Positions 146 to 38,629 of a stretch of DNA of 38,629 nucleotides are shown piece by piece. The notes under the pieces were generated by a model. That model was not told where the DNA came from. It made no database searches and saw only the letters and a program-made list of their open reading frames with translations. Position 1 is the first letter of the stretch; each line of letters opens with the position of its first letter. The translations under genes were made by a program, and so were the position numbers. Source of the stretch: a virus; IMG/VR virus record IMGVR_UViG_3300048445_000038, positions 1-38,629 of that record; one strand, given 5' to 3'.

Positions 146-146
146 T

Positions 147-16911: not shown

Positions 16912-16920
16912 GCCCTCTTT

Positions 16921-17005: not shown

Positions 17006-17073
17006 GATTCAAGGAAGTACAGAATGACTACAAAAAAAACATCCCCAACCTGATTCAATCGGACACAGACTTC

Positions 17074-17588: not shown

Positions 17589-17590
17589 CA

Positions 17591-17680: not shown

Positions 17681-17681
17681 T

Positions 17682-17837: not shown

Positions 17838-17840
17838 GAA

Positions 17841-18449: not shown

Positions 18450-18460
18450 GGATTTGACTA

Positions 18461-18955: not shown

Positions 18956-18977
18956 ATAATAGACTGGACATTCTACA

Positions 18978-19715: not shown

Positions 19716-19729
19716 AGGAGAACTTCATA

Positions 19730-20932
19730 ATGCCTTTATTTCAAATGACAGGTGGACTGGGCCTGAAGACCTATGGTTCACATGTTACTGGTCCCTATTG
19801 GCCCAATTTAGTGACAACGTTCAACCTAACACCCCAAGGCGCACAAGGTTCCTTAGGGCCGACATCCACAAATTACCCGACTGGGTACCCGAGTGTCGAT
19901 CTATTGAATGGTGTTCAGCGTATTACCTTCCCCTTTGACTGCATGATCGAAGCAGACGTCATGGGTGCTAATGGTATGGGTTATCAATACGCTTCTCAGG
20001 GTGGTAGGGGCCGCGGTATGCGGATTAACTTTAAGTATCAAGCTGGACAGTACCTAATGTGTCTTGTTGGTCAGGGCGGTCACCGAACAGGTAATGGTGG
20101 CGGCGGCGGCGGCGGGTCATACCTATGGGAGGGTTCAGTATATGCTGGTTCTGCATCTGCCGCCCTCCTCGCAATCGGGGGTGGTGGAGGAGGCTCAGGG
20201 TCTTGGTATATGAATGGTGGAGATGGATGCCGATACACCTATTATAGTACTGACGTCACCTATGGTAACACTCCAAGGAACTACTACGGCACCAGCTATA
20301 ACCGCACCGTCGCGAGTACCCCTTCTAATACATATGGCGGTAACCACGGACCTTACACTCAGGAAGACAACTATAGCAGTTGGAACTCCTACTGGAATGG
20401 CCCAGCATCGGGTGGCGCGGGATGGAACTCAAACGCCAATAACATGCGCGGTAAGAACATCAAAGACACCACAAGCCTTTATTATACTTATTATCCAACA
20501 GGGGGCGGTGAACGCTCTGGGTATGGTATTGTAGGTGGTGTACGCTACTTTAGTCAAAGTAATACTATTTATACGGGGCAACCTATCGGTAGCTTATACA
20601 CTAGCCAAGGCGGCTTCGGCGGCGGTGGAGGCGGTGGGGGAAATGGTATTTCAGGCGGCGGCGGTAGTGGCTACACAGGCGGCAACGGCGGTGGAAACTG
20701 GCAGGGTGGTGGTACTAATGGTCGGTATGGTCACGGTGCGGGCCACGGTGGCACCAGTTATATACGCTCAGGCACATACAATGGTGTAACTGTAACAAGA
20801 AATGACACTATATTAGGAAGAAACAGTGGTACAAGATATGGCAATGCAGGTGACTTGGCTGCCGACGGTTACATCACGCTAAGGATATATGACCTCCCCG
20901 CTGGTGGTACTAAAATGCTTAATTGGGTATAA
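19730..20932 (+). CDS. Glycine-rich adhesin-like tail protein
   Basis: A 400-aa protein. The N-terminal 120 residues form a beta domain ending QAGQYLMCLVGQGGHRTGNG. Then come runs of Gly (about 123-129, 150-155, 296-345) separated by Tyr/Ser/Asn-rich loops, ending with a beta segment (GDLAADGYITLRIYDLPAGG). The pattern resembles the Gly-rich domain of animal ALK/LTK proteins and polyglycine-sandwich phage adhesins, where loops between Gly helices bind receptors. The variable Tyr-rich loops are the likely host-range determinants. The GGAG site and 15-nt spacing put it in the fibre operon. Confidence 0.7.
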   Translation: MPLFQMTGGLGLKTYGSHVTGPYWPNLVTTFNLTPQGAQGSLGPTSTNYPTGYPSVDLLNGVQRITFPFDCMIEADVMGANGMGYQYASQGGRGRGMRINFKYQAGQYLMCLVGQGGHRTGNGGGGGGGSYLWEGSVYAGSASAALLAIGGGGGGSGSWYMNGGDGCRYTYYSTDVTYGNTPRNYYGTSYNRTVASTPSNTYGGNHGPYTQEDNYSSWNSYWNGPASGGAGWNSNANNMRGKNIKDTTSLYYTYYPTGGGERSGYGIVGGVRYFSQSNTIYTGQPIGSLYTSQGGFGGGGGGGGNGISGGGGSGYTGGNGGGNWQGGGTNGRYGHGAGHGGTSYIRSGTYNGVTVTRNDTILGRNSGTRYGNAGDLAADGYITLRIYDLPAGGTKMLNWV

Positions 20933-25775: not shown

Positions 25776-26022
25776 TAGGTTTCTTTCCCTCAAGTTCATT
25801 GATCCGCATTTCGCAGTACCTAATTGCTTTGCGGAGATCGGTGATTTCTGATTGTTCGGGTGATTGTCCGTAGTATTCCTTGGACCCTGCGCGGCTTGCG
25901 TATTTTATTATGTTGCCCCGCCAGAACTCGAACTTATTGCTCATGATGAACACGATTGGTTCTATCGCCCATTGTGCGTAATGCTCTGGGCGTTCAATCA
26001 GGTCTTTAGGTCTCAAGGCCAC
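25768..26022 (-). CDS. DUF3310 family protein
   Basis: An 84-aa protein with the DUF3310 core: RPEHYAQWAIEPI, then FWRGNIIKYASRAGSK and DLRKAIRYCEMRINEL. The family is widespread in phages and is linked to nucleotide metabolism (it is found fused or next to nucleotide-modifying enzymes), but no activity is proven. The start is GTG, with AAGGAG just upstream. It overlaps the upstream wHTH gene by 17 nt and nrdJ by 8 nt, consistent with one nucleotide-metabolism operon. Confidence 0.8.
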   Translation of the reverse strand: MALRPKDLIERPEHYAQWAIEPIVFIMSNKFEFWRGNIIKYASRAGSKEYYGQSPEQSEITDLRKAIRYCEMRINELEGKKPNE

Positions 26023-26440
26023 ACCACTCCTTCAACTTGTTATGTTGGTAAGGATTCATGGTGTACTGCTTGTAACCATTGTTCCCTTTCAAGAAGTGTT
26101 CTGTGATTATCTCAGCAGCCGATAGACGCTGAAAGTGGTCACGGATTGTGGACCTAGGAACCCCTAGTTCAATTAGAGGCATTCCTGAGAAGACGTTGTG
26201 CGCTGGGTTCTGCATTAGCCACAGGTTTATCTTTTGGCGGCTGCCGCTTTGTTGTGTCCCAGCGTATACCTCTGGTGCTGAACGGTGACGCAGAGGCTGT
26301 CTCTCGCCGTGTAGGTAATTACGGTCTATACGCTTCTCATGCTCTTCCATTTCGTACCTGATGATTTCTTGGATTTCATCTGGGTACATGGGTAGCCTGA
26401 AGGCACTCTTTACTATGTTTTTGTACTGTTCTGGTGTCAT
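26006..26440 (-). CDS. Winged helix-turn-helix-like protein
   Basis: A 144-aa protein from ATG 26440, which overlaps the exonuclease stop (ATGA). The N-terminal half has a charged helix (PDEIQEIIRYEMEEHEKRID). The C-terminal half contains a probable HTH (LIELGVPRSTIRDHFQRL) followed by a wing-like SAAEIITEHFLKGNNGYKQY. This may be a DNA-binding regulator or a replication accessory. Position among replication genes is not typical for a lysogeny repressor. Confidence 0.6.
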   Translation of the reverse strand: MTPEQYKNIVKSAFRLPMYPDEIQEIIRYEMEEHEKRIDRNYLHGERQPLRHRSAPEVYAGTQQSGSRQKINLWLMQNPAHNVFSGMPLIELGVPRSTIRDHFQRLSAAEIITEHFLKGNNGYKQYTMNPYQHNKLKEWCGLET

Positions 26441-27192
26441 CTTGTGGGTTCCCAAAGTTTGACCGCTTGTGTCTCTTCGTCCCAATCTGGGTCTCTAAGA
26501 ATCCTTGCTAATCGCGCTTGGGTCAGCGCGTAGTCTGCGGTTAGGTTTTCTTTTTGATAGGCGTTGACCACAGCGTTCCATGTCGCATGGCTGCCCAACA
26601 CTTTCTCGGCTGTCTTAGGTCCAATCTTTGGACACCCTGAGTAACCGTCAGTTACGTCACCTGTGAGGGTTTGGGTGTAGAAGTACCTGTCAGCCTCGGC
26701 CTCACTAATGTGCAACCGTTCTTCACTTGCGGGTCTATAGAGACGACAAGGAACAGACTTCATGTCCTTATCATCAGACACAACAATCGCTCTGGTCTGA
26801 GGTACAGACCCTAGGATTCCCATGACGTCATCTGCTTCTAAGCAGTCAACTTGGATGGTCTCATAGGTTTCCTTGACCCACTCAGTAAGTGCCCTGTACC
26901 CGACAGGCTTACGTGTCTTCTTACGTGCTGCCTTGTACGAAGGTTCTACTGATTTCCTGAAGTTGCTGTGTCCTGACAGAGTGACCACGATGTCTTTAGC
27001 ATCTAGGTCTTTAGCGAAGTCAGAAACCGTGGCTGCAAAGGCTGCCTTGGCTTGTTTCAGGTCTGTCGAGAGTGACCACACATCATCACCCCAATCTGTC
27101 TCCTCTTCACAAGAGGCTGCACAGCGATAGAGGTACAAGTCACCATCAATGACTATTGTGGTGCGGGGGTAACAGTTCTTTAAGAACATCAT
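26437..27192 (-). CDS. 5'-3' exonuclease, FEN-like (T7 gp6 type)
   Basis: A 251-aa nuclease. Metal ligands appear in order: IDGDLYLYR near the N-terminus, LEADDVMGI and VSDDKDMKSVP in the middle, and GDVTDGYSGCPKIGPKTAEK with the helix-3-turn-helix DNA-binding element. This is the pattern of FEN/PIN-like 5' nucleases, which remove RNA primers and degrade host DNA for nucleotide reuse. AAAGGAG lies 6 nt before the ATG. The start overlaps the end of the upstream gene by 47 nt. Confidence 0.88.
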   Translation of the reverse strand: MMFLKNCYPRTTIVIDGDLYLYRCAASCEEETDWGDDVWSLSTDLKQAKAAFAATVSDFAKDLDAKDIVVTLSGHSNFRKSVEPSYKAARKKTRKPVGYRALTEWVKETYETIQVDCLEADDVMGILGSVPQTRAIVVSDDKDMKSVPCRLYRPASEERLHISEAEADRYFYTQTLTGDVTDGYSGCPKIGPKTAEKVLGSHATWNAVVNAYQKENLTADYALTQARLARILRDPDWDEETQAVKLWEPTR

Positions 27193-27523
27193 CTATTTCT
27201 CCTTTGACCTCCATTCCGACATCCGTAATGCACCAACGGCTGCCCCATGAATCGACGTCTACTTTGGTTGTGATGAAGCCCTCTGATGCAGCGATTGCCA
27301 CGTGCATTGCGCCCTTGCGGGAAAAGTCGGACTTAACTGTGAAAGGTGACCGCCACGCACGGTCTAGCACCACGTAGAGTGCCACAAGGTTTTCTATGTA
27401 TTCGTCAACCTCAGTGCGTGTCAGCCCAAGTTGTTCCCACGGAATATTCTGCGGCGATGGGGATTTTAATTCCGAGAGCAACGCCTGACGCTTCCGCCAT
27501 TCGTCGAGAGATATTACCGACAT
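27146..27523 (-). CDS. Hypothetical protein overlapping the DNA polymerase 3' end
   Basis: A 125-aa protein from ATG 27523 (MSVISLDEWRKRQALLSEL), chosen because AAGGAAG lies 9 nt upstream; longer in-frame starts (27565, 27601) lack a site. It overlaps the polymerase gene by 113 nt in another frame. The N-terminal half is helical (GLTRTEVDEYIENLVALYVV). The C-terminal half resembles a small mixed domain (VKSDFSRKGAMHVAIAASEG, ITDVGMEVKGEIDDVL). Function unknown; position suggests a replication accessory. Confidence 0.65.
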   Translation of the reverse strand: MSVISLDEWRKRQALLSELKSPSPQNIPWEQLGLTRTEVDEYIENLVALYVVLDRAWRSPFTVKSDFSRKGAMHVAIAASEGFITTKVDVDSWGSRWCITDVGMEVKGEIDDVLKELLPPHHNSH

Positions 27524-29177
27524 GTTCAGCAACTTCCTTAGTTCTACAGGCGACTTGAATTTCATCGTGGACCCAGCCCACAATGTACGCATCGTCGCCA
27601 TGTTGTTTCTTGATTTCGTCGTAGGTCATCATGACCCACTGCTTACTCACGATGCTGCCGCATGACTGAAGCAACTGTGAGAGACAGCGGTGTTCGGAAC
27701 GTATCTTTAGTTTCCGTCCGTCAATCGCCTTGATGTACCCACGCTTGTAAGCGGTCTTCAGGTTCTTCTTGAGTGTCGCAAACGCTGGAACTGCCTTGTC
27801 GTAGTTTGCTTTGAGTTCACGCCCTCGCTGTACACCACCACCTGCTATCTGACCGATGAGTGCATCGCCTCCACCGTAGAGCGTAGCGTAAAGCCATGTC
27901 TTCGCCTGTGGGCGTGTCTCCAGACCTGTAGCGCGTTGGTTATAGGAGTGTATGTCACCCTCAAGTATCTGCTGTGCATACTCGCCCTTGTCATAAGGGT
28001 AGAGGTAAGAGGCGAGACAGCGAACTTCGATTCCTGAAAGGTCACTACCGCACAACCACCAACCCTCAGGCACGGTGAACAACTCACGACACTCTCTGCC
28101 ATACTCGGACCCTGTGCTAGGCACTTGACCTAAATTTGGCGATTGATGAGCCGCGCGGGACGAGGTAGTCCCATTTGACACCAAGCGGTGACGTAGGCGA
28201 CCATCAGCATCAACCTTCTTCATCCACGCACCCTTACCTTCAGCAAGCATTCCGATACGCTTCTGTAACAAGAAGAACTCGGCTAGTTCCTTGGACTCAG
28301 GGTAGGGCAGTGCGGCTAGTATCTTTTCGTCAATCTTAGCCTGACCACTTTCTGTGAAACTCTTAGGCTTCCACTTGTACTTATCGACTAAGCATTTGTG
28401 GATGTGTTGCCTTGAGCTGGGGTTGAAGTAGATGGTCTTGGACTTAACGAACACCTCACCCGCAACGTAACCTTTGGTCTTGTTGTCACGTTTAGGCACG
28501 AAGTCCTCGTGTACTTCCCAAGGTGGAAACAAGTCCTTCAGTTTGTCTTCGATGGTGTGACGCTTTTGGGCTAGGTGCGCATATAAATCCGCTGCCTTCT
28601 TTTCGTCAAAAGTCCAACCGTTGCTACCAATCTCTTTACAGATGACAGCCATGCGGTGTTCAAGCATCATTGACTGTTCCGAAGGTTCGGTACTCATGAA
28701 ATGCTTGTAGAGAGTGTCGGTGACTTTGGTGTCCTGAATACAGTAAGAAAGCATCTCTTCGCTAAATGCTTCCCAACCACCATCATAGTCATCTTTGAAG
28801 TCGCTGAGACGGAGTCCCCACGCCTTTAGGCTATGGGAACCCCAAAGACGCTTCGGAAAGTCCGCTTGTGAAAAACCTCTTTCAGCGTCTTCATTGAACA
28901 ACTCGTGCTTGATCAGCCTAGACATGACCAAGGTATCCGTCACCTTACCTGAAGGTACGAAGTCGGGATAAACAAGTTGTATTGCAGGGATGTCGAAGTC
29001 GAGGATGTTGTGTCCGATTATTTCTTCGGCTTGTACAAGAAGTTGTACGCCTTCAGAGATATTATCAGGACGGAAAGCCCTTACTTCGTCTGTGTCTGGG
29101 TTGCGAAGGACCAAGCAGTGAATGCGGTCCATCTTGTCCAGTAGTCCGTTGGATTCTAGGTCAAAGACCCATCTCAA
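27411..29177 (-). CDS. DNA polymerase, family A (T7-like)
   Basis: A 588-aa polymerase with a 3'-5' exonuclease domain. Exonuclease motifs: D6/E8 in VFDLESNGLL, HNILDFD, and YCIQD (D149). Polymerase motif A is SDLSGIEVR (D379), motif B is KTWLYATLYGGG with Y430 at the site of E. coli Phe762/T7 Tyr526, and motif C is VHDEI (537-539). The start is TTG at 29177, overlapping the MazG-like stop; the next ATG would remove the exonuclease motif. Tyr at position 762 is the residue usually linked with fast, lytic phages. It replicates the genome with the primase-helicase and SSB. Confidence 0.95.
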   Translation of the reverse strand: MRWVFDLESNGLLDKMDRIHCLVLRNPDTDEVRAFRPDNISEGVQLLVQAEEIIGHNILDFDIPAIQLVYPDFVPSGKVTDTLVMSRLIKHELFNEDAERGFSQADFPKRLWGSHSLKAWGLRLSDFKDDYDGGWEAFSEEMLSYCIQDTKVTDTLYKHFMSTEPSEQSMMLEHRMAVICKEIGSNGWTFDEKKAADLYAHLAQKRHTIEDKLKDLFPPWEVHEDFVPKRDNKTKGYVAGEVFVKSKTIYFNPSSRQHIHKCLVDKYKWKPKSFTESGQAKIDEKILAALPYPESKELAEFFLLQKRIGMLAEGKGAWMKKVDADGRLRHRLVSNGTTSSRAAHQSPNLGQVPSTGSEYGRECRELFTVPEGWWLCGSDLSGIEVRCLASYLYPYDKGEYAQQILEGDIHSYNQRATGLETRPQAKTWLYATLYGGGDALIGQIAGGGVQRGRELKANYDKAVPAFATLKKNLKTAYKRGYIKAIDGRKLKIRSEHRCLSQLLQSCGSIVSKQWVMMTYDEIKKQHGDDAYIVGWVHDEIQVACRTKEVAEHVGNISRRMAEASGVALGIKIPIAAEYSVGTTWADTH

Positions 29178-29527
29178 CGGTTGTCGCCAGAACCACCAAT
29201 GACCCCACGCTCTTTGCGGGAGTTCAGTTTCTCAATGTTCATGGCTGCGATTGAGTTTAGCGAGATGTCTAAGTCACGCGCAAGGCTTGCGACATACCAC
29301 AGTACATCACCAAGTTCCGCACCGATGTCTGCACGTTGCTTGTCGCTCAACACAATCTTTCCATCGAAACGGATGTTGTCATCGCGGATCAACTTCTTGA
29401 TCTTACCGCCTACCTCACCCGCCTCATTGGCAAGACCAAGGGCAGGGTAGATGACCTTCCACTTATAGATTGCTGTAGCGGCTGTATCAGCCTGATAGTC
29501 ATTCATTGTGTACATGTGATTAACCAT
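29174..29527 (-). CDS. MazG-like NTP pyrophosphohydrolase
   Basis: A 117-aa protein with the MazG/all-alpha NTPase signature: GLANEAGEVGGKIKKLI (EExxE-like metal site) and GAELGDVLWYVASLARDLDI (ExxxD second site). Such phage enzymes hydrolyse nucleoside triphosphates, including non-canonical or alarmone-related ones, and have been proposed to keep the host in a growth-like state. AGGAGAGG lies upstream of the ATG. It overlaps the polymerase start by 4 nt, placing it in the replication operon. Confidence 0.85.
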   Translation of the reverse strand: MVNHMYTMNDYQADTAATAIYKWKVIYPALGLANEAGEVGGKIKKLIRDDNIRFDGKIVLSDKQRADIGAELGDVLWYVASLARDLDISLNSIAAMNIEKLNSRKERGVIGGSGDNR

Positions 29528-29541
29528 AGTAATACCTCTCC

Positions 29542-29865
29542 TTAGGCGTAGTCATATTGACGTTTGCCAGTGCCAAAACTTGTGTGACGCCAGATAGTTT
29601 GCATCCGTCCAGTTGGACCCTTACGTTTACCTATGGCTTCGATGTGCCCACCCGCTTCGAGTGACTTGAATTTGCTTGTGACTGTGCCGTATGGCATGTG
29701 CTTCAGTTTTTTGCATATTTCCGACGCAATGATGCCTGAAGCCTTTGATAAAAATATGACGTTTAGAACCTTTTGTTCCGACTTTCTGATACGTGTTCTT
29801 GGTGTTTCTTTTTGTTCGTTTGCGAACTTCATTTCTGTCTGCTGCATGTTTTCTTTAGTCTCCAT
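29542..29865 (-). CDS. Small winged-helix-like DNA-binding protein
   Basis: A 107-aa basic protein. The core TRIRKSEQKVLNVIFLSKAS, ASEICKKLKHMPYGTVTSKF and LEAGGHIEAIGKRKGPTGRM reads as a winged helix (recognition helix about 58-72, wing about 80-95). The stop of the primase-helicase and its ATG share one base. It could be a transcription regulator or a primer/replication accessory; MarR-like fold is inferred only. Confidence 0.65.
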   Translation of the reverse strand: METKENMQQTEMKFANEQKETPRTRIRKSEQKVLNVIFLSKASGIIASEICKKLKHMPYGTVTSKFKSLEAGGHIEAIGKRKGPTGRMQTIWRHTSFGTGKRQYDYA

Positions 29866-31466
29866 TAGAAGGGCATGAAGTTATCTGCTGACATGAGACG
29901 CCCTTTGTCTCTGTCATACTGAAGTTGACCTGCGGGACCGACCTCACCTGTAAATCGGTTCTTCAAGACAACTAAGTTCCTAAGACCCGCTGTCGGGTCT
30001 TCAGCGTCCACCTCAAGGCCAACACAGGCGTCTGAGAGTTGGACCAAACCGTGGCTTCCTCTGAACTGATTGAGCGACACTCTATCGCCGTTCTCATGCC
30101 CTCTATCGCCACTTGGGCGGCGTAGGTGAGACACGAGGATTAGCGGAAGGTCTAGTTCAGAACACAGGACACGTAGTCTGTGGACGATTGAGTCTATGAG
30201 TGTCCGTTCATTGGACGTCTCAGCGGTCAATCCACTGACCAAGATACTAACGTGATCTAAGAAGACTACGTCACACCCAAGACCGTGCTTCATGTAGCGA
30301 ATACGGTTTTCAATGGTGTCCATGTCAGTGCTACCAAAGTGGTCAAAGAGATAGATTGGGCTTTTAGACATTAGGTCATCGAACCCTGTGGTTATCTCTT
30401 CGTCTGTGGCTGCCTCATTATCTATGGTGATGTTCTTGTTGATGTGGATGCCTACAAGCCCCTGTGCGGTACGCTTAGTGCTTTCCTCCAACATCATCAT
30501 CCCCACAGTGAAGCCGTCTTGGTGTATCCTATAAGCCAACTCCCGAACTAAGGTTGACTTACCGACCCCAGACCCTGCCGCAATCGTCACGAGACCAGTG
30601 CGTATGCCTTTCAGCATTTCGTTCAGTTTGGGGTAGGGGTACTTGATAGGACTTTCAGCATCCTTGGCTGCCACCACGTCACGCATGTCTGCCATAGCCA
30701 CAATGCCGTCTGGCCTGTATTGCTGCGCTTGGTGAATGGCTGTGATGATTGCACCTGCCTCACCTTTCATCAGACACTCATTAGCGTCCTTGTGGGGCAA
30801 CACGGCAATCTTTGTTTTACCAAGAGGCAAGACTTCGGCACAGGCTTTGGCTGCCTCAATACCTGCTGTGTCTTGGTCAAACATGAGGATGATTTCCTCA
30901 AAGTTGCTGAGGTAATCTATCTCTTTCAGTAGATGCTTCTTAGCACTCTGTGCGCCGTGGGGAACGCTGCATGTAGCAAATTTATGCCCTTGGACTTGCG
31001 ATATTGTCATGGCGTCTACTTCGCCTTCTGCAACTACCAGTTTCTTTCCAGAGGACCACAAGTGCCAACCGAACAGACCCATCTGGTCCTTGTCGCCAAC
31101 CACGGAAAACTTCTTGTCTTTGGTGCGTACTTTCTGTGCCACGGCTTGGCCTTGGCGCGTCTTGTATGTCGCCAGATGCACAGGTTGACCATTCACCTCA
31201 CCCACCATGTAGCCAAACTTGCGGCAGGTGGCTTCGGTCAGACCACGGCTCCGTAGTTCCACGTAGTCACCTTCGATTAGGTCACGCTTCACTTTGGTTT
31301 GAACGGTGGTCTCAAAACTATCGTCATCTGATGGTTTGTAAGTCTGGCATGAGAAACACCACATACTACCATCGCTGTACAGCGCGTTTGCATCCGAAGA
31401 GCCACAAGCCTCGCATGGCTCATGACTAACGAACTCCGCGTCTGTCTCGTTAATCTCTTTGTTCAT
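29865..31466 (-). CDS. Primase-helicase (T7 gp4-like)
   Basis: A 533-aa protein with a zinc finger (C18, C21, C37, C40), TOPRIM primase core (VAEGEVDAM, E148/D151, and MFDQD, 198-200) and a C-terminal DnaB-like helicase (Walker A GSGVGKST, 298-305; MMLEESTKRT; VVFLDHVSIL as Walker B). It unwinds DNA and makes primers for the family A polymerase. ATG 31466 with AAGGA 8 nt upstream is preferred over an ATG at 31532 that would begin inside a terminator hairpin region. Confidence 0.93.
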   Translation of the reverse strand: MNKEINETDAEFVSHEPCEACGSSDANALYSDGSMWCFSCQTYKPSDDDSFETTVQTKVKRDLIEGDYVELRSRGLTEATCRKFGYMVGEVNGQPVHLATYKTRQGQAVAQKVRTKDKKFSVVGDKDQMGLFGWHLWSSGKKLVVAEGEVDAMTISQVQGHKFATCSVPHGAQSAKKHLLKEIDYLSNFEEIILMFDQDTAGIEAAKACAEVLPLGKTKIAVLPHKDANECLMKGEAGAIITAIHQAQQYRPDGIVAMADMRDVVAAKDAESPIKYPYPKLNEMLKGIRTGLVTIAAGSGVGKSTLVRELAYRIHQDGFTVGMMMLEESTKRTAQGLVGIHINKNITIDNEAATDEEITTGFDDLMSKSPIYLFDHFGSTDMDTIENRIRYMKHGLGCDVVFLDHVSILVSGLTAETSNERTLIDSIVHRLRVLCSELDLPLILVSHLRRPSGDRGHENGDRVSLNQFRGSHGLVQLSDACVGLEVDAEDPTAGLRNLVVLKNRFTGEVGPAGQLQYDRDKGRLMSADNFMPF

Positions 31467-31487
31467 TTCGCTGTCCTTGGGAAATAG

Positions 31488-31513
31488 AAAAAGGGGCGAC
31501 CTTAGCCGCCCCT
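31488..31513 (-). terminator. Intrinsic terminator / attenuator before primase-helicase
   Basis: On the minus strand AGGGGCG (31513-31507) pairs with CGCCCCT (31498-31492) around an 8-nt loop and runs into TTTTT (31492-31488). It lies 21 nt before the primase-helicase ATG and shares the sequence CCCCTTTTTCTAT with the terminator before SSB. Confidence 0.75.
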
Positions 31514-31516
31514 CGC

Positions 31517-31957
31517 TCACCTTTGTAGGCACTCTTCAATCCAGTCATCAGGGATGACCTTGTGTGCCCATAAGAAACCATGCTTCTCGCAGTAGTCCGC
31601 GTAGGTAGTCTTGCTACCTTTGTAGAGTTTGGACCGCGCATTGCTGAACACAAATCGAATGTCGATGTCTGTGTGCTGCTTCTTGATCAAGAGGTGTTTG
31701 GCACGGTCTTGGACCGCCCAAATGCCTTTCGACTCAAGATACCAAAATCCATCCTTCTTCGGCAGTTTGAAATCGGGGGTGTATCTCGCTTGCCGCGCTG
31801 GGATTTCATAGTGGATACGGTCAGTCTCATACAATACTTCAATCGAATGTGACTGAAGTTGCTCCGCTATGGTTTCTTCGAGGCCCGAACGGTAACCCGC
31901 CGCCAAGCCTCTGTAGAATGCTTTGTTCTTCTTTGGGAGGTTAGAAGTCAAAGTCAT
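31517..31957 (-). CDS. Endonuclease I, Holliday junction resolvase (T7 gp3-like)
   Basis: A 146-aa protein. The catalytic residues of T7 endonuclease I are matched: Glu in SGLEETIAEQL, Asp in ARYTPDFKL, and the E-x-K pair in FWYLESKGIW. It resolves branched DNA before packaging and helps break down host DNA. The gene starts within the last 17 nt of the SSB gene, so translation is probably coupled, and ends just before the terminator at 31488-31513. Confidence 0.92.
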   Translation of the reverse strand: MTLTSNLPKKNKAFYRGLAAGYRSGLEETIAEQLQSHSIEVLYETDRIHYEIPARQARYTPDFKLPKKDGFWYLESKGIWAVQDRAKHLLIKKQHTDIDIRFVFSNARSKLYKGSKTTYADYCEKHGFLWAHKVIPDDWIEECLQR

Positions 31958-32492
31958 CCTTGGTCACGTCTGTCTTGAGGGTGTCAGACGTGGCCTCCAT
32001 TGACGCATCGACGACAAAAGAGCCTTCGACCTCGTCAAATCCTGTTTCATCCCCACCGAAACCAACGACATCAACTACCTGAATCTTGTCCAGCATCATT
32101 GAGACACCAGATGAACCTGAGACAGTATAAAGGTTGAGAATACCGCCACCTTTTAGTTGGCTTCCGCCACCAATGTTCGGTAGTGCGCTGGGTGCGATTA
32201 CTTGACCCTTGGTGTCGTAAAACTTTGGTTGGTACTTTGACTGAACCTTGAAAGAAACCTCACCAGTCTCTTCGTCTACGCTGAAGGGCATACGAAGGTT
32301 CTTCTTAGATGCACCAAACTCTTCCGCTGCTGCTTCTTTGATCTTGGCGACCAAATGCTTTGCGTCTTCTTGTGACATCACAAGTTCCGTTTTGTACTTC
32401 GGGTTGTCCGTGTTGAAAGCAGTGTCTGGTTTGTTCAGGTGCGGATATTTCGCGCGGCCTACGTTAGTCAAGAATTGTATCTTTTTTGCCAT
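31941..32492 (-). CDS. Single-stranded DNA-binding protein (T7 gp2.5-like)
   Basis: A 183-aa protein with a beta-rich OB-like body (KIQFLTNVGRAKYPHLNKPD, LNLYTVSGSSGVSMMLDKIQ) and an acidic C-terminal tail ending VTKDDFDF. An acidic tail with terminal Phe is the hallmark of gp2.5-type SSBs and docks on the polymerase and helicase. AAAGGA lies about 10 nt before the ATG. First gene after a phage-type promoter and an intrinsic terminator. Confidence 0.88.
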   Translation of the reverse strand: MAKKIQFLTNVGRAKYPHLNKPDTAFNTDNPKYKTELVMSQEDAKHLVAKIKEAAAEEFGASKKNLRMPFSVDEETGEVSFKVQSKYQPKFYDTKGQVIAPSALPNIGGGSQLKGGGILNLYTVSGSSGVSMMLDKIQVVDVVGFGGDETGFDEVEGSFVVDASMEATSDTLKTDVTKDDFDF

Positions 32493-32519
32493 TCTTTAGT
32501 CGTTCCTTTGTGCTGATAG

Positions 32520-32546
32520 AAAAAGGGGTGACCCGAAGGCCACCCC
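32520..32546 (-). terminator. Intrinsic terminator before SSB
   Basis: On the minus strand GGGGTGGCC (32546-32538), TTCG loop and GGTCACCCC (32533-32525) form a 9-bp stem (one G-U), followed by TTTTT (32524-32520). A textbook terminator, 27 nt upstream of the SSB start and only about 62 nt downstream of the predicted phage promoter start. Confidence 0.85.
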
Positions 32547-32608
32547 AGAGGACAGGAAAAGAGTTTGAAAGTCAGCGGCAAATAGGGAGGAGAAAACCGC
32601 TGTCCTTC
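32520..32608 (-). ncRNA. Candidate short leader RNA between phage promoter and terminator
   Basis: If transcription starts at G32608 and stops at the T run ending 32520, an 89-nt RNA results. It contains AGGACAG (32606-32600... paired region) complementary to CTGTCCT (32555-32549), CAGCGG complementary to CCGCTG (32578-32573), and the terminator stem. The two upstream pairings compete for the same bases, which is what an attenuator or structured small RNA would show. No ORF of note inside. Existence is inferred. Confidence 0.4.
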
Positions 32609-32629
32609 GATAGGGGGGCAGAAGTCAAC
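32603..32629 (-). promoter_or_regulatory. Putative phage RNA polymerase promoter of the replication unit
   Basis: The minus strand reads ACTTCTGCCCCCCTAT (32625-32610) then CGAAGGACAG. It shares 25 bp with the copy before the RNA polymerase gene (35267-35291) and 20 bp with the late copy (370-389). It overlaps the RNA polymerase stop codon (32627-32625). CTATCGAAGG compares with CTATAGAAGG of SP6. Reads toward SSB and the replication genes. Confidence 0.65.
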
Positions 32630-35249
32630 TGAAGCAAAATTGACTCAATCTGATGGACTGTAAGTCCAGTGTCCCTTTCTCTGGAATATTCCTGTCGAAC
32701 TCATGTGCAGGGTTAGACAACTGTTGCCGAACCTCGTTTTCAAACCGTTCAAACACACACTCACCATTGTACATGTCGATGAATGTTTCTCGCACAGTAT
32801 CAAACAAGTCCCACACGTCACCACTCACAGAAAAACTGTCATGAATCATAAAGAAGTCCTCGGCAGTCCCTTCCTCCAACATTCTGACTATGCATAGGTG
32901 CATATGCCCTGAGTCACACCCATGAATCATGTTGGGGGCTATGCCGTTTGTGGCCTTCTTTACGTCACTCTGGTCTATCTCTTCGCGTAGTGACATCTTA
33001 GTGCGCCCACGTTGCTTGATTGCTCTGTCGTACAGGAAAATCTGAATCTCTTTGCGCTTCGTCTTCCTGTAGTCTTGGACAATCGGAAAGCCACTCGGTG
33101 ATGTCCACCTTATCGGCTTGTTCTCTCGTGCTAGAGCCTCGGTCACGTGCTGTAGGTACTCCATTGCTTCAGACACCTTGGGCAGGGTGTCCTGAATGGC
33201 GTCATAGCATACCTGAGCCATGAACCTTGCAGCATCGAACTGTTCCTCCTCGGTAGACCCAAGAGGGTGCGTGTCGATTTCCTTATAGGCAACTTTACGC
33301 TGCAAAGGCTGCATAAAGTCTTCCACGAACTGTGCGGACATTCCGACAGGCTTGGAACTGTATCCAAAGGTCATTACTGACCTCTTAAGAACGCTTCGGG
33401 TGACCCCATAGTCCAACCAAGTCTTTGCAAGTTCACCCACCGTCTTGCTGTTGTCGCGTCTGGCGTTGAAGGGTGTTTCGTCCTCAAGTTTACCTTCGAG
33501 AACCTTGACCACTCGCTCTGCATTGGTGCGGTAGATGTCGGCCATTTCTTCGCTAGGGACGAGGTTGACCAACGCACCTTCGCGTTTGCTTCGGTTGATG
33601 CCGCTGTAGTGCTGCACACCACTGTTAGTTCCGTCGAGGCTGATAGGGACGTAGGAAACGAAGTCTTCGCCCTCTGCCTCAAGCCTTGCGTACTCGAAGA
33701 CAGCCGCAAGAAACTGGAACGGTTTGTCAGCCTTGGACCAGAGGTCAAAAGTTGACTTGAAGTCTTGAGCGACCTCTAACAACCACTCCCGATTATCCTC
33801 AACCCACTGCACACGGTCATCCAGTGGACGCTTGGACACTTTGTCAAAGTCCCCTACGTTTGCTAAATGTACCTTTAACCAAAAGGCGTTATTACCGTCA
33901 ACTTTGTAGCCTCTGAAGTAAGTGAAGAGTGCCTTAATGTGGTCATCTCTGTGGTAGTTGAAGGTAGGTACAAAGTACAAGCGTCCCCTGAAGTCCATAT
34001 AGACTGGCAAATAGAACTTGTCGTGAACTGCCAGTTCATGCGCTGTCTGTAAGTCCTGACGCATAACCTCAGCGGCCCCTTTGACCTGTGACTCTAGTTT
34101 CTGGTGTCTCCTTATGTCTGCTTTGATTTCCGCAATGACCTCACGGTCCAACTCTTGCCAGTTCTCTGGCATCCGTGGTCTTTCTGGCAGTTTTGCGGTG
34201 GGAAACTTACCGAATTGCTTTTGTTCATCCCAACACCACTGGACTACCTCCAGAATAGCCTCATTGATCGACAGAGGAGTCGCCTGAAGCGCGTTAACTG
34301 CCTTGACGTAGGTAGGGGTGCCCTGAGTGAAAGCGTAGCGTATGGCGGCTTCCTGCTCCGCTGTGGCCCCTCTGACCAATTTGACTGAGGAGGCTAGGAA
34401 GTCGTCATGGTAACACCCTGTGTCAAAGTCCACCCAAGGCTTAGGCTCCGCAAGCATTGGCTTGTAGATCGGGGCCATCCAAGAGAGGTATCTTTCAGAC
34501 TTCTCTAGTTGCTCTTGTGCTTCATCCGTAAAGGTCAACTTCAGGCTGGTATTGTTCTTACCTTCGACCACAAGCACCTTGTCGAACACATCAGAGAACT
34601 CAAGCACATTAGACAGCACAGGTGCCGCTAGTTTGGCTCTGCGTTCTTTAAGTGCCTGACGTTCTGCACGTGTCTTAGCTATGCCGAAGTTCAAAGACCG
34701 CATACCGTTCTTCTCTGCGATAATCCGCAGGGCTTTCAGTCTGTATGCAGGGCTGGTGTGCGCCTCTGTTACTTGGTCAATTAGTCGCTTGTTTGTGTTG
34801 AGTGGCTTTGGTCTCTCAAGTCCAAGTTCTTCGGCTTGCTGTACGGCTGCACGATGCTTGGCCTTGTCGTCTAGCATTAGGTCATGCTTGAGCAACTCTT
34901 TCTCCACAAGTTCGCCTATCTTTTGGGTGACTTGAGTGACCGACTCCGTCTTCAACACCCCATTAAAGGAACACAAAAGACCAATGTAAGCTAAAGTGCT
35001 TGAGTCTACTTGTGACAACTCCTCCACCCACATAGGCAAACGGCCTTTGGTGGCTTTAGCTGACTTTAGTGACTGTAGTATTCCTTCAGCTACCTTTGGT
35101 AATGCTTCTTTTAGTTTGTTGAAGTGGTGGGGGCTATCTGTCGCTTCAGTCTGCTCAGAGTGCTTTTGGTCCCACTTGTCCTTCCCTTGTTCCCTCATGC
35201 TCCACTCATAGGCGGCATTAGTATCCTTAGCATCTATAGTTTTATTCAT
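32625..35249 (-). CDS. Single-subunit DNA-dependent RNA polymerase (T7-like)
   Basis: An 874-aa enzyme, close to T7 RNAP (883 aa). Catalytic motifs: motif A SLDGTNSGVQHYSG (D539), motif B RSVLKRSVMTFGYSSKPVG (R618, K622, Y630), motif C MIHDSFSV (D804). The C-terminus ends in LSQFCFS, with the terminal aromatic pattern of this family. It takes over transcription of middle and late phage genes from its own promoters, probably the three repeated elements described here, one of which lies directly upstream of this gene and would make it self-amplifying. ATG 35249. Confidence 0.95.
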   Translation of the reverse strand: MNKTIDAKDTNAAYEWSMREQGKDKWDQKHSEQTEATDSPHHFNKLKEALPKVAEGILQSLKSAKATKGRLPMWVEELSQVDSSTLAYIGLLCSFNGVLKTESVTQVTQKIGELVEKELLKHDLMLDDKAKHRAAVQQAEELGLERPKPLNTNKRLIDQVTEAHTSPAYRLKALRIIAEKNGMRSLNFGIAKTRAERQALKERRAKLAAPVLSNVLEFSDVFDKVLVVEGKNNTSLKLTFTDEAQEQLEKSERYLSWMAPIYKPMLAEPKPWVDFDTGCYHDDFLASSVKLVRGATAEQEAAIRYAFTQGTPTYVKAVNALQATPLSINEAILEVVQWCWDEQKQFGKFPTAKLPERPRMPENWQELDREVIAEIKADIRRHQKLESQVKGAAEVMRQDLQTAHELAVHDKFYLPVYMDFRGRLYFVPTFNYHRDDHIKALFTYFRGYKVDGNNAFWLKVHLANVGDFDKVSKRPLDDRVQWVEDNREWLLEVAQDFKSTFDLWSKADKPFQFLAAVFEYARLEAEGEDFVSYVPISLDGTNSGVQHYSGINRSKREGALVNLVPSEEMADIYRTNAERVVKVLEGKLEDETPFNARRDNSKTVGELAKTWLDYGVTRSVLKRSVMTFGYSSKPVGMSAQFVEDFMQPLQRKVAYKEIDTHPLGSTEEEQFDAARFMAQVCYDAIQDTLPKVSEAMEYLQHVTEALARENKPIRWTSPSGFPIVQDYRKTKRKEIQIFLYDRAIKQRGRTKMSLREEIDQSDVKKATNGIAPNMIHGCDSGHMHLCIVRMLEEGTAEDFFMIHDSFSVSGDVWDLFDTVRETFIDMYNGECVFERFENEVRQQLSNPAHEFDRNIPEKGTLDLQSIRLSQFCFS

Positions 35250-35266
35250 TTGTTGGCTTTTCCTGT

Positions 35267-35292
35267 TGTCCTTCGATAGGGGGGCAGAAGTA
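35267..35292 (-). promoter_or_regulatory. Putative phage RNA polymerase promoter of the RNA polymerase gene
   Basis: The minus strand reads ACTTCTGCCCCCCTAT (35292... region) then CGAAGGACAAC. The 25-bp block 35267-35291 is identical to 32601-32625. Predicted start G35274, 25 nt before the polymerase ATG. It would give positive self-regulation. The remainder of 35293-35341 shows nothing else of note. Confidence 0.65.
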
Positions 35293-35341
35293 TTTTTAGC
35301 TGCTCAACCTGCCTCAAGCCCCATCGTGTTGCGTCAATTGT

Positions 35342-36169
35342 TTACCCTGCCATTTGCGCTGCCAGTGCTTGAAGTGCGCTGGGTTTGGCTTTGATGTACT
35401 TGCGGGTGGTCTTCTCGCTCTTATGCCCTAAGAGCATCCCTATGACCGCTGTGTTAGCCTTGAGGTCATTCGCCATGACTGTCGCGGCTGTGTGTCTCAG
35501 CGTGTGGAACACATAGCGGCTGTCGTTGCCTAGGATGTCTCTACGCATGGCACCCCAAGCACGGTAGAACCGCGTGTGTTCAAAGAAGCCACGACAGTCA
35601 AAACCTAAGGCTTCTAATGCGCTGTATGCTCTGGCGTTCACTGGTACAAACCGTTCCTCTCCGTTCTTGGTTTTCTCAAGGTGAATCCATGTGTCACCGT
35701 TGTCATCCTCGGTGATGCTGTGAGGTGCCACTTGGCATATTTCACCGAGCCTCATGCCTGTCTGGTGACCAATTACAACGAAGTGTTCCACCCAAGGTTC
35801 ACTGGAATCCCTGAACCATGCTTCCACACGCTCCAACTGTGCTTTGGTGAAGTAGAGTGGACGCTGTGTGTTTTCCACGGTTTTCCATGTGAACTGTGGT
35901 GCGTGGGTGATTACCTCCTCCTTCACCGCTTGCTTGAAAACCTTGGTCAGCATGGCTGCGTAGTGGTTCACTGTGTTGTCGCTCAGTCCCTGCGCTGTAA
36001 GGCTGTCAAAGTAGGCGTGGATGTCGGAAGGCTTGAAGTCGCCTATGTGCCGTGTGCTGTGGTCAGCAAAGGCAGCGAACTTCTCACCCTTGGCAATCGA
36101 GCGGCGTTTGTGGTCCCCACGCCACAGACGGTCAGCCTCTTGGTTCATAAAGTCAGCAAAAGTAATCAT
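35342..36169 (-). CDS. Tyrosine integrase/recombinase
   Basis: A 275-aa protein with a core-binding N-terminal domain (about 1-100) and a catalytic domain. Catalytic residues: R140 in HQTGMRLGEI, HTLRH (H222, R225), GHK (H249), and nucleophile Y258 in TTRKYIK. All are present, so the enzyme looks active. It lacks the extra N-terminal arm-binding domain of lambda Int, as do several integrases of marine podoviruses, where int also sits directly before the RNA polymerase. No excisionase or repressor gene is evident. Its start overlaps the previous stop (ATGA). Confidence 0.93.
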   Translation of the reverse strand: MITFADFMNQEADRLWRGDHKRRSIAKGEKFAAFADHSTRHIGDFKPSDIHAYFDSLTAQGLSDNTVNHYAAMLTKVFKQAVKEEVITHAPQFTWKTVENTQRPLYFTKAQLERVEAWFRDSSEPWVEHFVVIGHQTGMRLGEICQVAPHSITEDDNGDTWIHLEKTKNGEERFVPVNARAYSALEALGFDCRGFFEHTRFYRAWGAMRRDILGNDSRYVFHTLRHTAATVMANDLKANTAVIGMLLGHKSEKTTRKYIKAKPSALQALAAQMAG

Positions 36170-36342
36170 GACGTGGCCTCCTCCAGTACAGTGACATCTA
36201 CAGATTCATCGACGTCTGCATGTTTAGTCTTGATGAACCCCTCGCCGCGCTTGACCAACTTCAGGGCTTCGGCTTCGGATGCTGCACGAACCTCGTAGAA
36301 GTCCGCACACCAGTAGTTTCGGATGATGCTGTAGCGTTTCAT
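36166..36342 (-). CDS. 58-aa hypothetical early protein
   Basis: MKRYSIIRNYWCADFYEVRA, then SEAEALKLVKRGEGF and an acidic tail. The alternating beta start and EAEAL helix resemble small phage proteins of unknown role; an excisionase is possible from position beside int but no HTH is seen. AAGGAG lies 8 nt before the ATG, and both ends overlap neighbours by 4 nt, which strongly supports it. Confidence 0.7.
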   Translation of the reverse strand: MKRYSIIRNYWCADFYEVRAASEAEALKLVKRGEGFIKTKHADVDESVDVTVLEEATS

Positions 36343-36671
36343 TGCGCTGTCTCCTTGTCGGCTAGTTCATCCATGCGGTTCATGATGACCGCCAACACCA
36401 CACCCAAGTCCTTGAGCGAGGCACTCTCTGCCATTTCGCGGACTGACTGCCACGGGTGCGGTCTTGTGCTGCTGCTGCGCGTTGGTACAGCGGTGCGGAT
36501 GCTGTCGCTGTCGATTGGTGGGACATATGAACTGCCCACGGCATGGAAGTTAAGCCACTCAAGTAACGCTGCCTTGTCGGTTGGTACGTCAACCAGATTG
36601 ACCTCGCCGTGTTCACGCTTGGCCTCGGCCTGTGTGCCTACCCAGTGTCCGTTTTGTGTGTAAAGTCTCAT
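36339..36671 (-). CDS. Hypothetical early protein
   Basis: A 110-aa protein starting MRLYTQNGHWVGTQAEAKRE, with a short beta/helix N-terminal domain (KAALLEWLNFHA), a Ser/Arg/Pro linker and a C-terminal helix (KDLGVVLAVIMNRMDELADK). GAGGGAGGG lies 8 nt upstream of the ATG. Family unknown. Coupled to both neighbours by 4-nt overlaps. Confidence 0.7.
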   Translation of the reverse strand: MRLYTQNGHWVGTQAEAKREHGEVNLVDVPTDKAALLEWLNFHAVGSSYVPPIDSDSIRTAVPTRSSSTRPHPWQSVREMAESASLKDLGVVLAVIMNRMDELADKETAQ

Positions 36672-36844
36672 GGCTTCAACCCTCCCTCTTCCTCTAGTTT
36701 CTCCTTTAATGCGGCAATGCCGCTAAGGCGCACCAGCCAGTCCAAATTTCTGATGTCTTCACTGCTGAAGCCATGCTCTGCGTAGTCTTGCGCCTCCTCA
36801 CAGAGGCTCAAGATTAGGTCCAATTCGTCTATTGTGAATTTCAT
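36668..36844 (-). CDS. 58-aa hypothetical early protein
   Basis: MKFTIDELDLILSLCEEAQD then YAEHGFSSEDIRNLDWLVRL and a Lys/Glu-rich end. All-helical and acidic, unknown family. GGGGAG lies 8 nt before the ATG, and the stop overlaps the next gene by 4 nt. Confidence 0.7.
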   Translation of the reverse strand: MKFTIDELDLILSLCEEAQDYAEHGFSSEDIRNLDWLVRLSGIAALKEKLEEEGGLKP

Positions 36845-36848
36845 GTTC

Positions 36849-37229
36849 TTAACTCCCCAAGAAAAAGCGAACTGTCGGTGTGTCGCTGTTGTTTACAATT
36901 TCGACTGACTCGATGAACGAGTGCCAATCACCTGTGCGGTTCAGGAACTCAGCGACAGCCTCTTTGCACGATTGGACATCAACACGCCCATCACGAACCT
37001 TGATCTTTTGCTTCATGACTTGGCGTGACCAATGCTGCTCAAACTTACCCTCAGCGTCTCTCGTTAGGCGCAAGTGTGGTTGCACTAGCCAATAGTCACC
37101 GTCTGGTAACTCTGCGATTGTGTCGTGACCTACACGGTCCTCGTCTTCCCACTGTTCCACTGGTCCATCAGTGTTCTTGTAGATTGACCATGTGATGCGG
37201 TCTGCGGTGTAGTTTTCTTCGTGTGACAT
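36849..37229 (-). CDS. Hypothetical early protein
   Basis: A 126-aa acidic protein from ATG 37229 (MSHEENYTADRITWSIYKN). An in-frame GTG at 37238 is less likely because it overlaps the upstream stop and has no spaced ribosome site; AGGGTGAG serves the ATG. Trp-rich mixed alpha/beta (GDYWLVQPHLRLTRDAEGKF), no membrane segment, no recognised family. Confidence 0.7.
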   Translation of the reverse strand: MSHEENYTADRITWSIYKNTDGPVEQWEDEDRVGHDTIAELPDGDYWLVQPHLRLTRDAEGKFEQHWSRQVMKQKIKVRDGRVDVQSCKEAVAEFLNRTGDWHSFIESVEIVNNSDTPTVRFFLGS

Positions 37230-37234
37230 TTCGC

Positions 37235-37513
37235 TCACCCTAACTTTTTGATTTCAATTCCGAACAACAGCAATTCTTTGGTGCTGTGTCCTCCGCGTAT
37301 CATTTGCTCAATCCACCACTGCGGCGGGTCTAGCGGCTCTAGTTCAACACCTAGGTAACCGTTCTCCGTGAAGTACCCTGTAACCTTGGCGTTGCCCCAA
37401 GAGCCTGTGCCAACCACATCGCCAAGCATCGGCATGAAGTCTCCAGACCACACCAAGCCGTAGGCGTTTGTTCCAATGTTCTCTTTTCTGTATTCTGCTG
37501 TATTTAAAGTCAT
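37235..37513 (-). CDS. Hypothetical early protein
   Basis: A 92-aa protein from ATG 37513 (MTLNTAEYRKENIGTNAYGL), with AAAGGAGA 8 nt upstream. Longer in-frame starts would run over the preceding small gene. The central part is beta-rich (MLGDVVGTGSWGNAKVTGYF, GYLGVELEPLDPPQWWIEQM). Unknown family. Confidence 0.7.
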   Translation of the reverse strand: MTLNTAEYRKENIGTNAYGLVWSGDFMPMLGDVVGTGSWGNAKVTGYFTENGYLGVELEPLDPPQWWIEQMIRGGHSTKELLLFGIEIKKLG

Positions 37514-37526
37514 TCGACTGTCTCCT

Positions 37527-37649
37527 TTAGAAGGGCGGTTCGTCTGTGGGCTTCTCTGGCTTCCACACAACATCCACCCCATGCATGATAAGAATGTAAG
37601 CCTCTAAGGTGTGTCCCCAGAGGCTCAGGGGTTTAGTAGATTGAGCCAA
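37527..37649 (-). CDS. Possible 40-aa protein with TTG start
   Basis: An open frame ending in TAA at 37529, 13 nt before the next ATG. From TTG 37649 it reads MAQSTKPLSLWGHTLEAYI, then LIMHGVDVVWKPEKPTDEPPF split as LIMHGVDVVW and KPEKPTDEPPF. The composition is protein-like (Trp, Pro/Glu/Lys tail), but the ribosome site is weak; ATG 37586 would give 19 aa. It fills an otherwise empty gap. An inverted repeat (AGCCTCT 37599-37605 / AGAGGCT 37619-37625) lies inside. Confidence 0.4.
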   Translation of the reverse strand: MAQSTKPLSLWGHTLEAYILIMHGVDVVWKPEKPTDEPPF

Positions 37650-37728
37650 AGACAAGGCCGCCGTAGAGGATGAAGAAGAGGCACAGAACGCCCACTAGAT
37701 CGCCTAGAATTTCTTTCCAGTTCCACAT
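37633..37728 (-). CDS. 31-aa membrane peptide
   Basis: MWNWKEILGDLVGVLC then LFFILYGGLVFGSIY: one hydrophobic helix covering most of the peptide. Its ATG shares a base with the preceding stop (TGATG), and GGAGGTG lies 7 nt upstream, so it is almost certainly translated. Early expression and membrane location suggest an effect on the host envelope or superinfection, but no function is known. Confidence 0.7.
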   Translation of the reverse strand: MWNWKEILGDLVGVLCLFFILYGGLVFGSIY

Positions 37729-38255
37729 CACGCCACCTCCTTCGTGTAAGTCAGGAGACAGTCGCGGCGTTCCATTGCTGCTTCATATGCCTCCTCAAGT
37801 GAGGCAAACTTTGGGCGGCCTTGACCACGTGTCCACAAATCGAAACGGTCACCGACACGTGCGCGGTAGTCTGCCAAGGCTTCCATTTGGTCTTCACCAA
37901 AGTAATGGCTGTAATAGAAACCTTTGCAGTCGTTGTTGAACACTGCGCTGAGGAACTGACCATTGAAGTGGCCTAGAATGTGGTAGAGGTGGGTGTCACC
38001 CTCATGTGGAAACTGTGTGGCCTGAAAGATAACAAGGTCTTTCTCATGTGGGTGTAGGTCTTGCACACGCTGCCCTAGTTCCGCGTAGTTCTTCATTAGT
38101 CCTACGTGGGTTCCGTCACTCTTCAGGATGTGCTTGCGCTGCCCGAAGTACTCTTGGCCCTCTTCGACACATTCAGCGCGAGTGGTTGCCCCGAAGACAT
38201 CCACCCACTTGTCAGCGGTCTTATCGAATACGAATAGTGTGTAATAGACTGACAT
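37728..38255 (-). CDS. Hypothetical early protein
   Basis: A 175-aa protein (MSVYYTLFVFDKTADKWVDV). Mixed alpha/beta with many His and Tyr (HLYHILGHFNGQF, GFYYSHYFGEDQM), no membrane segment and no known catalytic motif. GAGGAGGTG lies before the ATG. Second protein of the leftward early unit. Family not recognised. Confidence 0.75.
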   Translation of the reverse strand: MSVYYTLFVFDKTADKWVDVFGATTRAECVEEGQEYFGQRKHILKSDGTHVGLMKNYAELGQRVQDLHPHEKDLVIFQATQFPHEGDTHLYHILGHFNGQFLSAVFNNDCKGFYYSHYFGEDQMEALADYRARVGDRFDLWTRGQGRPKFASLEEAYEAAMERRDCLLTYTKEVA

Positions 38256-38257
38256 GA

Positions 38258-38629
38258 TTACACCTCCTCACGGCAGGACAACATCCATTCGATGCTGTCG
38301 TTGACCAATGCTTCCGTTAGACCTGCTAAGTCTTTCTCTGGCATTGCCTCGACGATGCACTTTTGCACGTGTGAGTATGAGCCACCGTAGTCAGCCATGC
38401 AGTTGCGAACGAACTGGTTGATTGCCCATGAACGCAACTGGCGTTGTGTGGTGTTGGTGAAGGGGGACCAGATACCCTCAAGGTTCTGTAAGTTCTCCGC
38501 TTGTACCTGCTCACCGTTACCGTTGGCATATGAGCCTTCGATAAACAGGCGGAAGTATCTGCGAACTACTGAGTTGCTATCGTTTACATCAAGACCTGCT
38601 AGGTCACGTGTGATTTGCTGTTTGATTGT
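38258..38629 (-). CDS. Hypothetical early protein, C-terminal part (gene crosses the genome join)
   Basis: The 3' part of the gene whose start is at 145. The non-redundant portion is 38258-38493; 38494-38629 duplicates 1-136. It encodes GIWSPFTNTTQRQLRSWAIN, QFVRNCMADYGGSYSHVQKC and ends SIEWMLSCREEV. The stop is 2 nt before the next gene's ATG, and the end of the gene (GAGGAGGTG) doubles as that gene's ribosome site. Confidence 0.8.
   Translation of the reverse strand, partial: TIKQQITRDLAGLDVNDSNSVVRRYFRLFIEGSYANGNGEQVQAENLQNLEGIWSPFTNTTQRQLRSWAINQFVRNCMADYGGSYSHVQKCIVEAMPEKDLAGLTEALVNDSIEWMLSCREEV
38494..38629. repeat. Terminal overlap, right copy
   Basis: Same 136 bp as the left end with one substitution (G38620 against C127). 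See the left copy. Confidence 0.95.

Follow-up and report, generated by a model that had tools for sequence, protein, structure and literature searches.

Several described systems resemble parts of the arrangement reported here. The alpha-R8 small RNAs (sRNAs) of alphaproteobacteria (MmgR of Sinorhizobium and SisA-D of Caulobacter; 'suhB/mmgR', RF00519, in Rfam) combine sequence-variable hairpins with a UUUCCUCCCU core, a single-stranded anti-Shine-Dalgarno (anti-SD) sequence, and a Rho-independent terminator (PMC12559287). The cuckoo RNAs, CcsR1-4 and alpha-r14 (NfeR1) carry CCUCCUCCC loops on sequence-variable stems (PMC10746234, PMC3927594). In Rhodobacter sphaeroides, the 5'-UTR sRNA UpsM is made by a leaky terminator, past which transcription can continue into an essential operon (PMC5089854).

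Most of the known phage-encoded sRNAs come from temperate phages of enterobacteria. The Pseudomonas phage LUZ100, which is T7-like with an integrase, has phage promoters before its RNA polymerase (RNAP) and SSB genes, and one measured phage promoter, phi4, runs directly into a predicted terminator, T6. In T7, host polymerase stops at the terminator TE, which closes the early region and has the promoters phi1.1 and phi1.3 upstream. TE follows gene 1.3, and no conserved leader RNA is known to end at it.

The stretch of DNA analyzed here, which we call the window, comprises positions 1-38,629 (38.6 kb) of IMG/VR virus record IMGVR_UViG_3300048445_000038 and belongs to a marine T7-like phage that has an integrase. 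The minus strand carries the early genes, RNAP, SSB, endonuclease I, primase-helicase, DNA polymerase, exonuclease and ribonucleotide reductase, and the plus strand carries the structural genes. A sequence of approximately 136 bases, nearly identical in its two copies, is common to both ends of the record (window 1-136 and 38494-38629, a direct terminal overlap). Because the ends share these bases, the record is probably a complete genome, either circularly assembled or terminally redundant. The features that concern us are the following.

35342-36169, minus strand: integrase gene, with ribosome site GGAGGAGG.
35266-35290, minus strand: phage promoter, second copy, upstream of the RNAP gene, with a leader that has no 5' hairpin.
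32625-35249, minus strand: T7-type single-subunit RNA polymerase, the last early gene (PHROG 414, E 3e-183).
32627-32625, minus strand: RNAP stop codon, TGA.
32603-32624, minus strand: phage RNA polymerase promoter CTTCTGCCCCCCTATCGAAGGA, abutting or overlapping the RNAP stop codon.
32520-32608, minus strand: predicted 89-nt small RNA, alpha-R8/cuckoo-like, with its predicted +1 G at 32608 and its 3' end in the T5 tract.
32567-32608, minus strand: 5'-terminal hairpin, GAAGG.A.CAGCGGU / GCCGCUG.A.CUUUC (P>0.99).
32580-32595, minus strand: apical loop UUUCUCCUCCCUAUUU, holding the anti-SD motif CUCCUCCC (32592-32585).
32547-32566, minus strand: single-stranded, C/U-rich and G-poor linker AAACUCUUUUCCUGUCCUCU, which carries CUCCC in many relatives.
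32520-32546, minus strand: intrinsic terminator, with a 9-bp stem (32546-32525), a UUCG loop and T5 at 32524-32520.
31941-32492, minus strand: SSB (gp2.5-like), the first gene of the middle operon (PHROG 112, E 3e-29), with its ATG at 32492.
375-396, plus strand: third, weaker phage promoter, facing the structural genes (PWM 16.7 bits, against at most 11.6 in shuffles).
342-313, minus strand: best sigma-70-like site, TTGACA-18-CATAGT, a consensus match only, which lies beside the late promoter and points into the early region.

The sequence CTGCCCCCCTATCGAAGGACA occurs exactly twice in the window, at the RNAP/SSB junction and before the RNAP gene (35287-35267), where none would be expected in shuffles, and relatives have the promoter motif in the corresponding position (consensus CTTCTGTCCCCCTTTTGAAGGA). 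The sequence-only reading of this DNA had described a promoter facing a 9-bp UUCG hairpin with T5 before any gene begins. We recovered the same arrangement, and its coordinates and the 89-nt figure are correct; SSB is predicted to be reached by read-through only. Such a hairpin alone is nothing special, as the window contains 13 terminator-like hairpins against 13.5 expected; the terminator at the junction, however, recurs in the same position in every relative with the leader. As in the early terminators of T7-type phages, it is an intrinsic terminator between the early and the middle genes, and the host promoter upstream of it is a consensus match only, from a scan of positions 1-20,000 and 25,000-38,629. 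Another strong terminator is found at 31514-31491 (minus strand), directly after endonuclease I and before primase-helicase, and is kept in most of the relatives checked; the middle promoter and the helicase gene are thus separated by two terminators.

RNAP-based searches of IMG/VR yielded 130 loci with a readable junction, among which were 45 unique leaders of this type; leaders less than 80% alike gave a set of 19 representatives. The relatives with this leader have RNAPs 46-100% identical, and all 45 leaders keep a fixed order of promoter, +1 hairpin, unpaired C/U-rich stretch, terminator and SSB. The hairpin begins at the first or second transcribed base of these leaders, or at the third in the fold of L005. 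Compared with shuffles in which the first 6 nt were fixed and the remainder was permuted with dinucleotides kept, the leaders fold better (mean z of -3.2 for the 45 leaders and -3.0 for the 19 representatives), and 8.8 of the first 10 bases are paired in the representatives versus 5.9 in their shuffles. The pairs of the 5' arm are kept through different bases; for example, the pair at +5 is G-C, A-U or C-G in our table of 5' arms. The complement CAGCGG/CCGCTG, which had been noted from the sequence alone, sits in a hairpin of 12-13 bp that starts at +1 and that recurs, with its sequence changed, in all relatives. In other words, when the leader is compared across related phages, as had been suggested, this hairpin both covaries and is conserved. 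The unpaired parts of the leaders are 7% G and 76% C+U, and the leader is almost certainly a real conserved RNA element.

The hairpin is specific to this position. By folding, no comparable hairpin starts at +1 in the RNAP leaders or the late leaders of these phages, the leader of the promoter at 375 included. Because these leaders lack one, the hairpin is not general to phage transcripts, and we rejected the idea of a generic 5' stabilizer carried by every phage transcript. The leader is likewise a feature of the window's side of the family, because in a clade at approximately 44% RNAP identity this place is taken by a bare terminator (L069, L075 and L076) or by another gene (L071-L073 and L077-L079). 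No hairpin leader with CUCCC was seen in the cultured phages examined (Pelagibacter phages and LUZ100), nor in the MedDCM and Limnohabitans phages; the Limnohabitans phage stretch has a CTCCC in a different layout. Seven leaders (L005, L020, L011, L012, L037, L112 and L113) contain insertions of approximately 40-60 nt, often with one more large hairpin and in some cases with CTCCTC in its loop, and keep the +1 hairpin, the motif and the terminator.

While the stems vary, one short motif is retained. CTCCC is present in 19 of the 19 representative leaders, against 0.44 expected when stretches of equal length are taken from the same contigs. It is unpaired in 18 of the 19, where composition predicts 3.1; none of 1,000 shuffles reached this value, and no shuffle had any unpaired 5-mer in more than 11 representatives. 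Counting either CTCCC or CCTCC, the motif lies in the hairpin loop in 5 representatives, in the linker in 9 and in both in 5. The alpha-R8 10-mer UUUCCUCCCU is present, allowing for one mismatch, in 8 of the 19 representatives, against 0.00 expected, and L140 has it exactly. The core of the window leader, UCUCCUCCCU, is one mismatch from UUUCCUCCCU and lies in the hairpin loop. This loop also contains UCUCCUCCC within its 16 unpaired nucleotides, which matches 8 of the 9 letters of the cuckoo motif, and it holds the only copy of CTCCTCCC in the whole window.

RNA family models were also applied. In blind scans of the loci of 17 relatives with all 4,227 Rfam families, the models that scored highest were those of alphaproteobacterial sRNAs, and they matched at this leader: MmgR in L120 (34.4 bits, E 0.002), L043, L134 and L129, and both SorX (26.4 bits) and SorY (24.6 bits) in L137. 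The other matches were to two eukaryotic families at chance level, with one more in a repeat scan. A directed search with RF00519 placed its best match on the leader in eight contigs (G404, G409, G009, G014, G406, G407, G006 and G010). It found nothing in G017 and G018, which are contigs without such a leader, and nothing in several contigs that have one, the window included. No leader reaches the RF00519 gathering score of 41 bits, the best relative being at 34.4; in two of four bacterial genomes matched through the phage attachment site (see below), the best RF00519 scores were 36.0 and 33.4 bits, also below 41. The Rfam scan of the window gave no match at gathering scores, and the best sub-threshold ones were AniS and ncS025 at E values of 1-3. 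With a covariance model built solely from 14 cuckoo hairpins of bacterial genomes matched in this way, the leader ranks first in the window (18.8 bits, E 0.023), ahead of the next match at 9.3 bits (E 5.8), a score that rests largely on the loop motif. The RF00519 matches support a kinship of design with alpha-R8/MmgR but fall short of establishing membership of the family. In L035, a second sub-threshold MmgR match (6334-6401) falls at the terminator after endonuclease I, where the similarity is probably limited to the terminator part.

The comparison with the systems introduced above is one of parts. Like the alpha-R8 sRNAs, the window leader has a hairpin with a Rho-independent terminator directly downstream, and its anti-SD core is one letter away from theirs; it differs in having a phage promoter, in being the 5' UTR of SSB, in a hairpin flush with +1, in the placement of UCUCCUCCCU in the hairpin loop and in the lack of an RF00519 match. 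The cuckoo, CcsR and alpha-r14 RNAs present CCUCCUCCC or CUCCUCCC in a loop on a variable stem; the window leader has CUCCUCCC and eight of the nine letters of CCUCCUCCC in its loop, but it consists of one motif hairpin and a terminator rather than three or four hairpins in tandem and, unlike CcsR, it has no DUF1127 gene and is predicted to be transcribed by the phage. Two defining features of membership, an alpha-R8 model score at the gathering level and a cuckoo tandem array, were looked for in the window itself and are absent. SorX and SorY match one relative below their gathering scores and have a different genomic origin. The closest working precedent for an sRNA released by a leaky terminator ahead of an essential operon is UpsM, which shares the order of promoter, 5'-UTR sRNA and intrinsic terminator, but is a host RNA of 206 nt that lies upstream of mraZ and is unrelated in sequence. 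Among phages, TE resembles the window terminator as a stop for host polymerase where the early region ends, downstream of phage promoters, and LUZ100 resembles the window in its promoters; neither its phi2 nor its phi4-T6-phi5 stretch has a CUCCC hairpin leader. The earlier statement that no system of this kind had been described is only partly right, since phi4-T6 of LUZ100 and UpsM of Rhodobacter are described systems that share part of the design.

From these observations we propose the following mechanism. Host RNA polymerase would transcribe the early region and the phage RNAP gene and stop at the early terminator. Phage polymerase would then start at the promoter that overlaps the stop codon of RNAP. 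The same terminator hairpin would end a fraction of its rounds, and each of these would release a stable RNA of 89 nt in which both ends are hairpins and CUCCUCCC is exposed. This RNA may pair with G-rich Shine-Dalgarno sequences, as do the alpha-R8 (MmgR, SisA-D) and cuckoo/CcsR sRNAs, and could lower translation from host mRNAs and from early mRNAs of the phage itself, those of the integrase and its neighbors, which have GGAGG-type sites. SSB and most replication genes would escape through their weak sites, their mRNA being made by the rounds that read through. Intrinsic terminators release 12-86% of the transcripts of T7-type polymerases, with 54% at T-phi (PMC11347151), and with partial termination of this kind both a short RNA and a read-through mRNA are to be expected.

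We consider it probable, though well short of certain, that the leader yields an anti-SD sRNA acting in trans. What the sequences show is its anatomy, its conservation despite changing sequence, the enrichment of the motif, the family-model matches in relatives, the link to alphaproteobacterial hosts and the asymmetry of ribosome sites; that the RNA is made and accumulates, that phage polymerase terminates in part, and that the RNA acts in trans on these targets is what we infer. Against it, the leader of the window has no Rfam match and no leader attains the MmgR gathering score, and the conserved terminator after endonuclease I makes clear that an sRNA is not a necessary product of terminators in these phages. 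Whether the main role would be to silence early and host genes at the switch is a more tentative matter. It is possible that the arrival of phage polymerase opens the replication operon and at the same time silences, in trans, the translation of host and early phage genes, including the integrase. A host-mimicking anti-SD sRNA built into the early terminator might then serve as an RNA switch from the early or lysogenic to the lytic program in what may be a family of uncultured, marine, T7-like temperate phages. If true, this would be a new coupling of a transcription switch to translational takeover, by way of the hosts' own anti-SD motif, and would give a function to a recurrent and so far unannotated element of many marine phage genomes.

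The sequence-only reading had left the choice between a structured small RNA and an attenuator, and its two halves fared differently. The covarying +1 hairpin, the conserved unpaired anti-SD motif, the terminator and the Rfam sRNA matches in relatives argue for a predicted small RNA. An attenuator or riboswitch acting in cis, in which a signal, a protein or an alternative pairing would choose between termination and read-through into SSB, has in its favor a terminator directly after a promoter and the two pairings that had been noted in the leader. Both pairings do exist as sequence, but they do not form a switch, and to call them mutually exclusive is of little use. While CAGCGG/CCGCTG pairs with P>0.99 in the window, AGGACAG/CTGTCCT has a probability of 0.0005-0.005 (0.05-0.5%), is 5.8 kcal/mol worse, and is conserved only in the closest relatives (L004, L005 and L020); a 7-nt complement arises in 5% of 2,000 shuffled leaders. 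No conserved alternative pairing that excludes the terminator was found, and in each of 56 folds the hairpin and the terminator are both present. Antitermination by pairing of the leader with the terminator arms gave no signal either, as these duplexes are no better than with shuffled leaders (z of 0.38 and -0.23), and the leader does not sequester the SSB ribosome site, which is less paired than with shuffled leaders (0.53 versus 0.61). We give a cis attenuator almost no credence.

A simpler account is that the junction has an ordinary early terminator, at which host polymerase stops and which phage polymerase mostly reads through, and a 5' hairpin that stabilizes the SSB/replication mRNA, as the hairpin of the T7 gene 10 leader protects its mRNA; any short RNA would be a by-product. 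The location where the early region ends, the terminator-only version in the distant clade, and stems that vary freely while a hairpin is kept all fit this account. It leaves unexplained the unpaired CUCCC conserved in 19 of 19 representatives and the MmgR and SorX matches, and gives no reason why the late and RNAP leaders have no hairpin; we regard it as unlikely, though deserving of some weight. The element might instead act as DNA, as a transcription-primed replication origin with CTCCC/GGGAG as a primase or loading site. The primary origin of T7 lies just downstream of gene 1, which is the same genomic position, and a single conserved short motif would suit such a site, but an origin would account neither for a covarying RNA hairpin with the motif kept at unpaired RNA positions nor for the RNA-family matches, and seems extremely improbable. 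Finally, an anti-SD sRNA might be processed mainly from the 3' UTR of the early RNAP transcript, and so be present early and independent of the phage promoter. The leader does double as the 3' UTR of the RNAP mRNA, and several Rhodobacter sRNAs are reported to arise from 3' UTRs (PMC8625941, PMC9779115). In all clades, however, the hairpin starts exactly at the predicted phage +1, as for a primary transcript, and we think processing a distinctly poor prospect.

The strength of ribosome sites differs along the genome in the direction that a trans-acting anti-SD sRNA would exploit. Across loci L003-L160, with gene starts chosen by a script and therefore approximate, GGAGG-type sites precede 41% of the genes before RNAP (n=138) but 9% of those after SSB (n=131), and predicted pairing with the window loop is -8.8 kcal/mol for early versus -6.0 kcal/mol for middle genes (p 8e-11). 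In the window itself, the predicted values are -14.0 kcal/mol for the integrase site, -15.3 for the open reading frame at 36671 and -4.4 for SSB. From site strength it follows in these models that the motif would favor early phage genes, as well as host genes with strong initiation, and would spare replication genes; the asymmetry is no proof of targeting, because strong sites pair better with any anti-SD sequence.

We took the host from the attachment site because relatives in named bacterial genomes amounted to one distant match. At 199-273 (minus strand) the window contains a 3' portion, approximately 60 nt, of a tRNA-Tyr gene, which ARAGORN does not call and which is presumably the attP of the integrase at 35342-36169. 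Aligned against 385 alphaproteobacterial genomes, this segment has its best match, 97% over 60 nt, in one genome and matches three others at 93%, in each case at a complete, intact tRNA-Tyr gene. All four of these genomes carry cuckoo arrays, and the one with the best match has a run of eight CTCCTCCC hairpins. Judged by the attachment site only, the hosts are presumably alphaproteobacteria.

Two minor observations concern proteins. L103, a Rhizobiales contig, encodes a T7-type RNA polymerase 25% identical to the query and is a possible prophage. Between MazG and primase-helicase, the window (29542-29865, minus strand) encodes a small protein with weak, below-cut-off matches to RPA_C and Rpc34.
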